Origin: Polaribacter cellanae | Lineage (GTDB): Bacteria; Bacteroidota; Bacteroidia; Flavobacteriales; Flavobacteriaceae | Direction: 5' to 3' | DNA length: 64,000 nt | NCBI RefSeq assembly: GCF_017569185.1 | Contig: NZ_CP071869.1 | Coordinates: 1,054,001 to 1,118,000, forward strand | Part shown: positions 49,974 to 53,288 of the stretch, piece after piece | How positions within the stretch are numbered: position 1 is the first letter of the stretch | Layout of the letters: every line of letters starts with the position of its first letter | Program-made: the position numbers and the translations under genes | Notes under the pieces: model-generated | What the model saw: only the letters and a program-made list of their open reading frames with translations | What the model was told of the DNA's origin: nothing | The model's database searches: none

Positions 49974-50301
49974 ATTTATTTTTATTAAAATATTGATAAT
50001 CAGAATCTTAAAAAACAGACATCTGCTTACCTAAAATTAATAAGACAATTGTTGTGCCAATGTCTATAAAAATTTAAGAATACTTCAACATACAAAACAA
50101 CACTATAAGTTTAACTACTTAAAATACATATTTTAACTGATAAACTTTACAGTTTGATAGTTATTGTAAAGCTATAATAAATAGTAAATGCTTTTATGCT
50201 CAATTATTTTAAGCATTCGCTAAAAATAAAAAGTTTACTTTTATTTTCAGAAAAGTGTCACAAATTAAAGATGGTTTTGTCTTTAACATAGAAACGTTTT
50301 A
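49974..50301. other. 328-base divergent promoter region, lon and ECF sigma
   Basis: No gene is seen. Two perfect short hairpins occur: CTTTACA with TGTAAAG (50145-50171) and AATGCTT with AAGCATT (50187-50217). Neither is followed by a T tract in the sigma direction, so they could be operators or part of a leader. No convincing TTG/TAnnTTTG pair is visible. Confidence 0.4.
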
Positions 50302-50871
50302 TTGGAAACTAATCAACCACATATAACCAACCTTATAGAACGCTGCAAAAAGTCGGACAAAAACGCGCAATTAGAAATTTACAAAGGGTATTACAGAGCC
50401 ATGTACAATGTTTCTTTTCGTATTTTAAAAGATAAATTTGAAGCGGAAGATATCATGCAAGAAGCCTTTTTAACAGTCTTCACAAAAATGCACACCTATA
50501 AAGGTAAAGTTACATTTGGAGCGTGGTTAAAGAGAATTGTTATCAATAAAAGTTTAACACAATTAAAGAAAAATGCAAGATACCAAGAGGTAAAAATGGA
50601 AGTAATTCCTAATGATGATAATGTGCAAGAGGAAACACTTGAATATGCTGGTTTAAAACCTGAAATCGTTTTAAATTGCATGCAAAACTTGAAAGAAAAT
50701 TATAGATTGTTACTAAATTTAAACTTAATTGAAGGCTATGATTATGAAGAAATTGCGCAAATATTAAATTATACCAACGAAAATGTTAGAACTACAGTTT
50801 CGAGAGCTAAGAAAAAATTAAAGCAGGTTTTACTTGCAGAGAATATAAAAACACAAGCATATGGAAGATAA
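50302..50871 (+). CDS. ECF-type RNA polymerase sigma factor
   Basis: 189 residues. Region 2 has EIYKGYYRAMYNVSFRILKDKFEAEDIMQEAFLTVFTKMHTYKGKVTFGAWLKRIVINKSLTQLKK (about 25-90). Region 4 has LNLIEGYDYEEIAQILNYTNENVRTTVSRAKKKLKQVLL (about 138-178). Translation must start at the TTG at 50302: an in-frame stop lies 18 bases upstream, no ATG intervenes, and the next Met would remove the start of region 2. It controls, by inference, the three downstream genes. The next gene overlaps it by 11 bases. Confidence 0.92.
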   Translation: METNQPHITNLIERCKKSDKNAQLEIYKGYYRAMYNVSFRILKDKFEAEDIMQEAFLTVFTKMHTYKGKVTFGAWLKRIVINKSLTQLKKNARYQEVKMEVIPNDDNVQEETLEYAGLKPEIVLNCMQNLKENYRLLLNLNLIEGYDYEEIAQILNYTNENVRTTVSRAKKKLKQVLLAENIKTQAYGR

Positions 50872-51385
50872 ATTAAAACATTTTTTTTCTGAAAATAATT
50901 TCGATTTAAAAGAACCTCATTCTGGGCATTTAGAACGTTTTGAGCGTAAACTGAATCTGCCAAACAAAAAAGCAAAAACTCCTTGGAAATGGTTAAGTGT
51001 GGCTGCGTCTGTAATTTTAGTTTTAGGTTTTTCGTTAGGAAGCAATCACCAAAAAAGACAAATGGATTTGGCAGATGTTTCTCCTAAAATGGAAGAAGTT
51101 CAAAATTACTTTGTTTCCACAATTAATGCCGAAATTAAAACTTTAGAACTCAATAGAAGTTTAGACACAGAAACAATTATAGAAAGTGCTTTGGACGAAT
51201 TAGAGGAATTAGAAGATAATTATAAAATTTTTGTACAAGAACTTACCAAAAATGGAATGCAAAGAAGAGTTATTGCTGCTATGATTAAAAATTACCAAAG
51301 ACGTTTAGATATTTTAGAACGCACCTTACAACAAATCGATAAAATTAAAAATACTAATAACCTAAATAATGAAATTTATATATAA
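50861..51385 (+). CDS. Membrane anchored protein, likely anti-sigma partner
   Basis: 174 residues with one membrane segment (about 44-62, WKWLSVAASVILVLGFSLG) after a basic, Pro-containing stretch. The N-terminal cytosolic part (MEDKLKHFFSENNFDLKEPHSGHLERFERKLN) and a periplasmic helical part (ALDELEELEDNYKIFVQELTKNGMQRRVIAAMIKNYQRRLDILERTLQQI) follow the plan of a membrane anti-sigma factor. No ZAS zinc motif is seen. It overlaps the sigma gene by 11 bases and the next gene by 17 bases. Confidence 0.75.
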   Translation: MEDKLKHFFSENNFDLKEPHSGHLERFERKLNLPNKKAKTPWKWLSVAASVILVLGFSLGSNHQKRQMDLADVSPKMEEVQNYFVSTINAEIKTLELNRSLDTETIIESALDELEELEDNYKIFVQELTKNGMQRRVIAAMIKNYQRRLDILERTLQQIDKIKNTNNLNNEIYI

Positions 51386-52448
51386 AATTACATTCTTATT
51401 GCTTTTTTTTCCACTGATTTCCTCTGCAAATGACAAAGATAAAAAACACGAAAAATCGAAAACAATTACAAAAGAATACAACGTAAATTCAAATGCTTTA
51501 GTTTCTTTAAATAACAAGTATGGCGATTTAAACGTTACTACTTGGGATAAAAATAGAGTAGAAATTGAAGTAAAAATTACAGTAAAAGGAGACGATTTAG
51601 AAGATGTTAAAGAAAAATTAAAATCAATAAATATAGCATTTAATGCCAGCAGTTCTAAAGTAAGTGCAAAAACTACTTTTGGAGAAAAGAAAAGTAGTTG
51701 GTTTTGGTGGAAAAAGAGTAAAAATGTAAACTACAAGATTAACTATATTGTAAAAATGCCAAAAACAAATAGTGTCGATTTAGATAACGATTATGGCAGT
51801 ATTTATTTAGGAAATATTTCTGGATCTGCAGATATTAATTGCGATTATGGAAAAATTATTGTGGGCGAATTGTCTTCTAATGATAATAATATTAATTTAG
51901 ATTACTGTTCTGCTTCTACTATTGCATATATGAAAAGTGGCGATGTAAATATCGATTATTCTAAATTATCGATTGAAAATTCGCAAGACATTAAAGTAAA
52001 TGCAGATTATTCAACTTTAAAGTTCGATAAAGCTGGTGCTATCGATTTTAATGCAGATTATGGTTCTATTACTATAAATGATGCAGAAGATATCAATGGA
52101 AATTCCGATTATGTAAGTCTGCGTTTTGGAACTGTAAGAAAAAACTTAATTATAGATACAGAATATGGTTCGCTTATAGTAAAAAACTTAGTAGAAGGTT
52201 TCGAAAAAGTAGATATCTCTGGACAATATACAGGCATTAAAATTTATGTAGAACCAACAATTTCTTTCAACTTTAAAATAGATTTGCAATATGGAAGTTT
52301 TAAAAGGAATAACGATAAATTAGAACTTACAAAAAGCATTTCCAAATCCACAAAAAAATATTACGAAGGAAAATATGGTAAAGGAAAATCGAGTGGAAAT
52401 TTAAAAATAAATTCTCAATATGGAAGTGTTAGAATTAAAGAAAACTAA
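51369..52448 (+). CDS. Exported beta-solenoid-like protein with DYGS repeats
   Basis: 359 residues with a signal peptide (about 1-20, PLISSAND). It has about 12 tandem repeats of roughly 20 residues, each near a (N/D)xDYGSxxφ core (NKYGDLNV, DNDYGSIYL, NCDYGKIIV, NADYSTLKF, NADYGSITI, NSDYVSLRF, DTEYGSLIV, NSQYGSVRI). This points to a right-handed beta-helix similar to DUF4097 adhesin-like domains. Its role is probably at the cell surface or periplasm; no enzyme motif is seen. It follows the anti-sigma-like gene with overlap, so it is a likely target of that sigma factor. Confidence 0.75.
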   Translation: MKFIYKITFLLLFFPLISSANDKDKKHEKSKTITKEYNVNSNALVSLNNKYGDLNVTTWDKNRVEIEVKITVKGDDLEDVKEKLKSINIAFNASSSKVSAKTTFGEKKSSWFWWKKSKNVNYKINYIVKMPKTNSVDLDNDYGSIYLGNISGSADINCDYGKIIVGELSSNDNNINLDYCSASTIAYMKSGDVNIDYSKLSIENSQDIKVNADYSTLKFDKAGAIDFNADYGSITINDAEDINGNSDYVSLRFGTVRKNLIIDTEYGSLIVKNLVEGFEKVDISGQYTGIKIYVEPTISFNFKIDLQYGSFKRNNDKLELTKSISKSTKKYYEGKYGKGKSSGNLKINSQYGSVRIKEN

Positions 52449-52477
52449 ACAAAATTAATAACCAAAACTAATATATT

Positions 52478-53212
52478 ATGAACAAAAAAATAATTTTAAC
52501 CTGCTTAATTTTTACGATTGCATTTTCTATGAATGCGCAAAACTGGTGGGGAAATAGCAAAAAAATAAAAGGAAATGGAAATGTGGTTACTGTAAATAGA
52601 ACCACACCTAATTTCGATGGTGTTACTGCAGGTGGCTCTTTTGATGTAATTCTTGTAAAAGGAAAAGAAGGAAACATTAAAATTGAAGGAGAAGAAAACA
52701 TTATTCCTTATATAAAAACAGAAGTTAAAAGAAATACCTTAAAAATAAATTACAAGAAAAATACCAATATTAGAACCACAAAAAGATTAACTATAACTGT
52801 ATTTTACAATGATATTGAAAGTGTTTCTTTGGGGGGGTCTGGAAATATTTCTAGCAAAGAAAAAATTACTGCACGAGATTTTAATGCGAGTTTAGGAGGT
52901 TCTGGAAAAATAGATTTACATATACAAGCTAAAGAAGTTAGTGCATCTATTGGTGGTTCTGGAGATATCGATTTAAAAGGAAATACCACAAAATTAACTT
53001 GTTCTATTGCAGGTTCCGGAAGCATTAGGGCTTTCGATTTAAAAACCGATGAAGTAAAAGCAACTGTTGCTGGTTCTGGAAGTATTAAAACAACTGTAAA
53101 ATCTAAAATAAAAGCAAAAATAGTAGGCTCTGGAAATCTATATTACAAAGGAAACCCAAGTCATATAAATACAAAATCTGTAGGTTCTGGAAGTGTTATT
53201 GATAGGAATTAG
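52478..53212 (+). CDS. DUF2807 (head GIN domain) exported protein
   Basis: 244 residues with a signal peptide ending FSMNAQ (about 21). It begins with IKGNGNVVTVNRTTPNFDGVTAGGSFDVILVKGKEGNIKIEGEENIIPYIKTEVKRNTLKI, the DUF2807/GIN domain. Seven GSG-centred repeats follow (GGSGNIS, GGSGKID, GGSGDID, AGSGSIR, AGSGSIK, VGSGNLY, VGSGSVI). Such repeats form a beta-helix with a Gly-Ser turn ladder. Function is unknown. It is 29 bases after the DYGS-repeat gene and ends the sigma operon at a strong terminator. Confidence 0.88.
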   Translation: MNKKIILTCLIFTIAFSMNAQNWWGNSKKIKGNGNVVTVNRTTPNFDGVTAGGSFDVILVKGKEGNIKIEGEENIIPYIKTEVKRNTLKINYKKNTNIRTTKRLTITVFYNDIESVSLGGSGNISSKEKITARDFNASLGGSGKIDLHIQAKEVSASIGGSGDIDLKGNTTKLTCSIAGSGSIRAFDLKTDEVKATVAGSGSIKTTVKSKIKAKIVGSGNLYYKGNPSHINTKSVGSGSVIDRN

Positions 53213-53245: not shown

Positions 53246-53288
53246 AAAAAAAGCGTAAAAATGATAAATCATTTTTACGCTTTTTTTT
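53246..53288. terminator. Bidirectional terminator between DUF2807 and GlmU-like genes
   Basis: GCGTAAAAATGAT (53253-53265) and ATCATTTTTACGC (53268-53280) are perfect complements, flanked by a seven-base A tract on the left and an eight-base T tract on the right. It serves both convergent genes. Confidence 0.92.

Follow-up and report, generated by a model that had tools for sequence, protein, structure and literature searches.

Gene organization of the locus

The window analysed here is a 64,000-nucleotide stretch of the Polaribacter cellanae genome, which is a 4.14-Mb single contig, and it carries at 50302-53212 four genes in the order SIG, ANT, TR1 and GIN, all on the + strand, which encode an extracytoplasmic function (ECF) sigma factor, a probable anti-sigma factor and two predicted exported beta-helix proteins. 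Among the matches listed, the named strains most closely related at this locus belong to Polaribacter. SIG and ANT overlap by 11 bases and ANT and TR1 by 17, as a first-pass annotation of the sequence had reported and the open reading frame (ORF) coordinates confirm, while a 29-base gap separates the end of TR1 from the start of GIN. The features of the locus are as follows.

50256..50285, + strand: ECF-type promoter (TGTCAC-N18-TCTTTA), ending 16 bases upstream of the SIG start (G000:C1:1104256-1104285 in genome coordinates)
50302..50871, + strand: SIG, ECF sigma factor (regions 2 and 4), TTG start, 189 residues (Pfam, TIGR02937)
50861..51385, + strand: ANT, probable anti-sigma factor, 174 residues (AlphaFold2 model)
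51369..52448, + strand: TR1, beta-helix protein of the Toastrack fold with D-Y-G repeats, predicted to be exported, 359 residues (AlphaFold2, Foldseek, VIA-align)
51690..51722, + strand: basic, tryptophan-rich loop of TR1, KSSWFWWKKSK, a low-confidence loop in the model
52478..53212, + strand: GIN, predicted exported DUF2807 (head GIN) Toastrack protein with seven GSG units, 244 residues (PF10988)
53246..53287, + strand: hairpin of 19 pairs followed by a T run, probable end of operon transcription; one such site stands against 1.1 expected in shuffles, which makes it weak by number alone

The assignment of SIG to the ECF sigma factors, already made in the first-pass annotation, agrees with its domain content, as Pfam recognizes Sigma70_r2 (4.1e-15, residues 27-93) and Sigma70_r4_2 (2.2e-12, residues 122-173), both above cut-off, and no region 3, and the protein matches TIGR02937 at 3.6e-27. 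A narrower assignment to the PG0214-type sigma factors of NCBIfam was dropped, since its match of 5.1e-26 lies under that model's cut-off. The start of SIG at 50302 is apparently TTG and leaves a very short leader, 16 bases from the -10 box; TTG was also the start in 23 of the first 30 related loci, where starts were picked by a script that prefers ATG.

ANT adjoins SIG in 80/80 loci of named strains, and its AlphaFold2 model, built from 41 of 80 possible ANT rows with the window's own included, has a mean predicted local distance difference test score (pLDDT) of 77.3, rising to 76-97 in the exported helix blocks. The model consists of a short N-terminal part with conserved H23, R26, F27 and L31, one membrane helix at about residues 43-60 and a three-helix exported domain at 75-170; a basic stretch preceding the helix, judged by eye, suggests that the N-terminus lies in the cytoplasm. 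Foldseek returned nothing in the PDB at E 0.001 for this model; what it listed began at E 0.08 and consisted mostly of helical bundles, which were left uninterpreted. Position and one-helix topology make ANT a probable anti-sigma factor that would inhibit SIG.

TR1 and GIN as Toastrack-fold proteins

Both TR1 and GIN begin with a signal-peptide-like N-terminus, as judged by eye from the sequence, and both are built of short repeats. The DYGS-type units of TR1, put at about 12 in the first-pass annotation, comprise ten (D/E/Q)-Y-x units spaced 17-21 residues apart between residues 141 and 307, one more at 350 and an additional KYG unit at residues 50-52; GIN carries exactly the seven GSG units previously counted, at 120, 141, 160, 179, 199, 217 and 236. 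GIN belongs to DUF2807, with a PF10988 match of 4.3e-53 (180.2 bits against a curated cut-off of 24.2) that covers the whole model, and its PDB relatives are 3jx8, 3lyc, 4opw, 3ljy and 3pet. TR1 matches no Pfam or NCBIfam model above cut-off and neither DUF4097 nor DUF2807 of Pfam at E 1 or better, and a profile search against PDB sequences gave nothing at E 1, so that its kinship is visible only through the predicted fold.

Structure prediction, which the first-pass annotation had suggested for its repeat proteins, was run for TR1 with 40 of 78 possible TR1 rows, the window's own included, and yielded a beta-helix with a mean pLDDT of 90.5. Eleven Foldseek matches reach E 0.001 or better, all of them to 4qrk, 4opw, 3pet, 3ljy or 3lyc; the best is 4qrk at 4.9e-9, and the DUF2807 entry 4opw follows at 2.8e-5. 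The accompanying TM (template modelling) scores are low (0.18-0.31), the likeness running along the ribbon and not being rigid. VIA-align places TR1 at Z 16.7 to 4opw_B, with 218 residues aligned at a root-mean-square deviation of 3.1 Å, and the first unrelated beta-helix row appears at Z 10.1, about 6 units below. Because TR1 matches 4QRK and 4OPW, which Ravi et al. name as Toastrack structures (PMC11237479), TR1, by its predicted structure, and GIN, by family membership, are two branches of one Toastrack fold and not unrelated families.

Two exported beta-solenoid proteins had been proposed at this locus, in agreement with the fold and the N-termini. The accompanying statement that the function of either family is unknown needs revision, as GIN is a DUF2807 protein, TR1 has a predicted Toastrack fold, and the Toastrack superfamily (DUF4097, DUF2154, DUF2807) is tied to PSP/Lia-type envelope-stress modules (PMC11237479).

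In Pfam, DUF2807 is called "putative auto-transporter adhesin head", and PDB titles read "putative adhesin"; both point in another direction, in which TR1 and GIN would be surface adhesins and their stress control incidental, and a weak structural likeness of TR1 to autotransporter passengers (Z about 10) goes along with it. We hold this to be very improbable, given that Pfam recognizes no surface-export domain in the 359 and 244 residues of the two proteins, that none is seen in the TR1 model, and that the genes are strictly linked to the sigma/ANT pair.

Conservation of the gene order

Three sets of loci, all chosen by TR1 match and partly overlapping in genomes, describe how the operon is kept: a family set (30 loci, from the best-matching of the 153 genomes in which TR1 was found), a named set (the best 80 of at least 569 confirmed places) and a phylum set (28 new loci, best first, from 101 genomes with a TR1 match). 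TR1 itself was found in 153/199 family genomes and 101/296 phylum genomes at E 0.001, paralogues counted. SIG, ANT and TR1 follow one another in order and on one strand in 30/30, 80/80 and 28/28 loci of the three sets, respectively, a consistency well above what chance would give. GIN is present in 29/30 loci of the family set and 79/80 of the named set (the miss, L101, lies at a contig end), and it stands at most 110 bases from TR1 in 68 of these 79. Within the phylum set, 21 loci fall inside Flavobacteriaceae, 20 of them with GIN; the other seven belong to four other families of the class, and all 7/7 have SIG-ANT-TR1, with no GIN seen in any of them within the 1.1-1.5 kb examined downstream.

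Nine loci (L069, L071, L080, L081, L083, L084, L089, L095 and L102) have about 700 bases between TR1 and GIN. No same-strand ORF of more than 120 codons was found there in the four loci searched, and the two loci inspected, L071 and L080, contain in this gap a small ORF on the opposite strand, 95-100 codons long, that includes hydrophobic stretches.

Loss of TR1 is tested only by a count anchored on ANT, for which an orthologue (E below 1e-40) is present in 52 of the 78 genus genomes. TR1 adjoins it in 49/52; the other three, G492, G505 and G523 (L215, L216 and L246), have SIG-ANT-GIN without TR1, with about 30 bases between ANT and the start of GIN. At least one Toastrack gene is kept in 52/52 genus ANT operons. 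SIG-ANT is the core of the module, and either Toastrack gene can be absent; since TR1 is lost in 3/52 genus operons while SIG, ANT and GIN stay, TR1 is not indispensable. Of the four-gene co-occurrence that the first-pass annotation had put forward as a check, the part concerning SIG, ANT and TR1 stands, as these genes are not scattered, while a fixed set of four does not, given the absence of GIN from the 7/7 loci outside the family and the loss of TR1 in the genus.

The same genome contains, outside the window, a paralogous operon of ECF sigma factor, membrane partner and TR1-like gene (L002, G000:C1:308358-311738). Its second sigma factor is 41% identical to SIG and its second ANT 29% identical to ANT, and the third protein is a TR1-like protein of 458 residues with a long charged insert; the genes overlap by 17 and 20 bases behind a promoter TGCAAC-N18-TCTTTA. 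This operon, the promoter of SIG and a further likely regulon member described below had been overlooked in the first-pass annotation.

These patterns bear on whether TR1 could mainly be a sensor or co-inhibitor, acting on the stability of ANT by binding to its exported domain, so that the operon link would reflect signalling and not output. No other partner is linked as tightly as TR1, which stays with SIG-ANT in other families (7/7 loci) where GIN is not seen; in many loci the TR1 and ANT genes overlap, and a separate TR1-like gene occupies the same place in the paralogous operon. By analogy, the C-terminal domain of LiaX inhibits signalling and its N-terminal domain interacts with daptomycin (PMC11601895). 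Against such a role stand the three genomes that keep SIG, ANT, GIN and the promoter without TR1, unless GIN substitutes for it. We therefore favour output over an obligatory sensor on the strength of these natural losses, and we consider a mainly sensory TR1 rather unlikely; feedback by TR1 is possible.

A conserved promoter before SIG and a pentapeptide-repeat gene

The sequence TGTCACAAATTAAAGATGGTTTTGTCTTTA ends 16 bases upstream of the SIG TTG start in the window, and the pattern it represents, TGT(A/C)AC-N18-TCNNTN, is found upstream of SIG in 79/80 named loci, the single miss (L113) lying at a contig end. For the genus, a score matrix was trained on SIG promoters only, with a threshold of 13 bits and a spacer of 18 or 19 bases. 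The strict form of the promoter precedes 35/52 genus SIG operons, and the 16 inspected of the other 17 all score above 13, which brings the count to 51/52 (G535 is not in the count). Over the 78 genus genomes the strict pattern occurs at 121 sites, compared with 12 for a reversed control pattern; 35 of the 121 lie before the SIG operon, 16 before a pentapeptide-repeat gene and 70 elsewhere, including 22 with a spacer of the TTTTGGCA type. An ECF gene behind its own promoter type is the usual sign of self-activation, and the conserved site suggests that SIG switches on its own operon. With the four genes directly behind a conserved ECF-type promoter, the earlier idea that the repeat proteins are a regulated output gains support.

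The second gene family behind a SIG-type promoter encodes a predicted exported pentapeptide-repeat protein (Pentapeptide_3, 1.3e-24), with a strong or long match in 58 genus genomes, a number that omits G515, a 66-residue weak match. Scores of at least 13 are reached in 55/58 upstream regions of this gene (45/58 with the 18-base spacer only), compared with 4/362 control ORFs from the SIG loci and 8/2900 shuffles, where the 58 pentapeptide regions measure 310 to 721 bases and the 362 control regions 310 bases; the 4 control matches come from two loci. In the host genome, TGTCACATTTTAAGTTTTGAGTGGTCATTT precedes the pentapeptide gene at G000:C1:325560-326333. Among 17 family genomes with a pentapeptide match, 11 weak ones (E 5.5e-7 or worse) were left out of the promoter check, and the promoter also stands before all 4 strong matches in other genera; one of these, in G066, comes from an 80% complete genome with no TR1 orthologue.

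Two further properties connect the promoters of the two genes. The fourth base of the -35 box, A or C, agrees between them in 45/50 genomes having both (SIG/pentapeptide C/C 40, A/A 5, C/A 5 and A/C 0; Fisher 1.2e-4), and all 5 genomes with A at the SIG promoter have A at the pentapeptide gene. Besides, the pentapeptide gene occurs in 51/52 genus genomes with ANT and in 7/26 without it (Fisher 1.7e-11). From its upstream sequence, the pentapeptide gene probably belongs to the SIG regulon.

Three of the TTTTGGCA-type sites, read out individually, precede a conserved 47-codon ORF with an ECF-like promoter (L217:1465-1605, on the minus strand of G000:C1, and L218:1482-1622). The ORF matches no Pfam family above cut-off, and its neighbours are what we take, by eye, to be a serS-like gene and a TPR-like gene. 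We dropped it as a regulon member because G543 has this type of site without ANT and the TTTTGGCA spacer is itself conserved; the site resembles the sigma-54 consensus, and the conserved spacer could represent an operator or an element of the sigma-54 type. Sites before other genes, presumably including a DUF5916-like gene and a hydrolase gene, were likewise not counted into the regulon, as too few genomes share them.

Tryptophan-rich loops

Tryptophans were counted in 80 TR1, 79 GIN and 22 pentapeptide proteins, the last being those recognized by a text filter in 31 loci. In TR1 they are concentrated in the basic loop, where the pLDDT falls below 50 at residues 108-116, and 75/80 orthologues have two or three tryptophans within residues 100-130. 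Among seven distant TR1 relatives judged by eye, 5 were reported to keep at least two clustered tryptophans, while G391, G360 and G445, from one genus, do not. In GIN, two adjacent tryptophans (residues 23-24) directly follow the signal peptide, and 61/79 orthologues have one tryptophan or a pair behind the signal peptide, at about residues 16-40. The 22 pentapeptide proteins have just two tryptophans each, both in one loop of the form K/R-rich-W-W or W-F-x-W, and the outgroup proteins have one or two (n = 4). Such loops are possible sites of membrane or wall contact, and coincidence is possible as well.

Proposed mechanism and its alternatives

Taken together, the four genes probably constitute an autoregulated ECF envelope-response operon with exported beta-helix outputs. 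ANT, held by one membrane helix, would keep SIG inactive through its short cytoplasmic part, and an envelope signal perceived at the exported helical domain of ANT would release SIG. Free SIG would then read the TGT(A/C)AC-N18-TC promoter before its own gene, a site that is conserved, so that SIG, ANT, TR1 and GIN would be made together, probably along with the pentapeptide-repeat protein encoded elsewhere. As their signal peptides suggest, TR1 and GIN would be sent to the periplasm or the membrane surface, where they would most likely act as protective or scaffolding outputs docking on the membrane or the cell wall, possibly through the tryptophan-rich basic loops. The least certain step would be a damping of the response by TR1 and GIN after the envelope has been restored.

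Several observations weigh against this account and have to be set beside it. ANT matches no Pfam or NCBIfam model above cut-off and contains no recognized anti-sigma domain, its best match, DUF3379 at 3.2e-5, being below cut-off. Scanning the host genome with a looser pattern (N17-19) turned up 14 sites where the control had 15, a chance-level result, and 11 of these sites fall within a stop-free frame of more than 100 codons; the regulon was therefore sought across the genus and not called from one genome. All counts come from related genomes and hence are not independent, and the co-occurrence of ANT and the pentapeptide gene is confounded by this relatedness and by the many genomes lacking both that are small or incomplete. 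Moreover, 5/7 genomes with the pentapeptide gene and no ANT keep its promoter, namely G518, which is 99% complete and has a best SIG-like match of 30% identity, and G512, G514, G522 and G546, which are 57-76% complete, so ANT is possibly just absent from these assemblies; the promoter is gone in G552, where the gene is a fragment, and in G529 (83% complete). SIG may thus not be the only sigma factor that reads this promoter. A SIG search of ten genus genomes found 4 to 20 resembling places in each, so other ECF factors are at hand. The 22 further sites sharing the conserved TTTTGGCA-type spacer, an eye count, include one in G543, which lacks ANT. Finally, strong pentapeptide matches occur in 6/199 family genomes, of which 2 belong to the genus, while TR1 is family-wide. 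Being rare outside the genus, the pentapeptide gene cannot be the main output of a family-wide operon, and TR1 is a better candidate for this role.

Several of these points would also fit a shared pool of promoters read by several ECF sigma factors, in which the overlapping set of factors, and not SIG, would decide the output. Promoter retention in the ANT-less G518 and the four incomplete genomes, together with the site of the 47-codon ORF type in G543, is what such a pool would leave behind, and a precedent exists in Flavobacterium psychrophilum, whose ECF motif its authors could not assign to one of seven factors (PMC9723704). The pentapeptide gene nevertheless tracks ANT in the genus, and in most genomes with both promoters their -35 boxes carry the same A/C base, which speaks against such a pool. 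We regard the shared pool as a doubtful alternative, and an operon that SIG itself activates as the preferred reading.

An extended form of this reading, which we offer as speculation and think improbable, would define a Bacteroidota branch of Toastrack proteins acting outside the cytoplasm. The ECF pair would control TR1, GIN and the pentapeptide protein, the short basic loops in which each of them concentrates its few tryptophans would enter damaged membrane or attach to lipid A or to precursors of the wall, and TR1 would report the loading of that surface to the exported helical domain of ANT.

Relation to known envelope-stress systems

Toastrack proteins, DUF2807 and ECF sigma/anti-sigma pairs are each already known. 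According to Ravi et al., Toastrack domains are pan-bacterial, have envelope-stress partners and may have an intracellular role as an interaction surface, which is unproven; one sentence mentions an operonically linked sigma factor, for a DUF2089 Toastrack context (PMC11237479). The operon resembles the PSP/Lia Toastrack modules in that TR1 and GIN share the fold and are linked in an operon to a transcription regulator (PMC11237479). Unlike those modules, it pairs its regulator, an ECF sigma factor, with a single-helix membrane protein, and TR1 and GIN carry predicted signal peptides, whereas an intracellular location is argued for the PSP/Lia proteins (PMC11237479). Pfam finds no PspA, PspC or LiaF family among the four genes, which sets them outside the PSP/Lia modules by family content. 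PspC-domain genes occur at three other places in the genome. At one of them, which lies outside the window (G000:C1:95079-97208), a further DUF2807 gene is found on the same strand no more than about 1.5 kb away, forming a separate PspC-Toastrack locus.

Membrane anti-sigma factor and exported partner are likewise encoded in one operon with sigma E in the RseA/RseB system, where RseB controls the stability of RseA; RseB, unlike TR1, is not known to be a Toastrack protein, and the likeness is one of analogy only. In YvlABCD of Bacillus subtilis, a Toastrack gene is at least partly under an ECF factor, sigma W, as TR1 and GIN would be here; that system differs in having four named genes without a sigma gene and a Toastrack domain hypothesized to be cytosolic or at the inner face (PMC12791056). 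Within the same bacterial family, THC0290_1774/1773 of F. psychrophilum (SM6) presents an ECF sigma gene followed by an anti-sigma gene and an ECF-type promoter; SM6 differs by its CGT box and by including type IX secretion genes (PMC9723704).

Our literature search, mostly made without full texts, found no description of the Bacteroidota four-gene operon, of its promoter or of a set of exported Toastrack proteins under one ECF factor. The locus offers a small conserved unit with signal-peptide Toastrack proteins, a promoter of its own and natural deletions, in marine Flavobacteriaceae with many named strains. It makes two questions testable, namely which ligand an extracytoplasmic Toastrack protein binds, and whether such a protein is the output of the ECF switch or part of its sensor.

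On the second question the closest parallel comes from LiaX/LiaFSR of Enterococcus, which likewise couples an extracytoplasmic protein to envelope stress control (PMC11601895). LiaFSR differs in being of two-component type and Gram-positive, with a two-domain protein and no sigma factor. Enterococcus LiaX is a Toastrack protein. A Listeria LiaX has been named one as well (PMC12791056). LiaX sets a precedent for an envelope response that is held back by an extracytoplasmic protein as long as stress is absent (PMC11601895).

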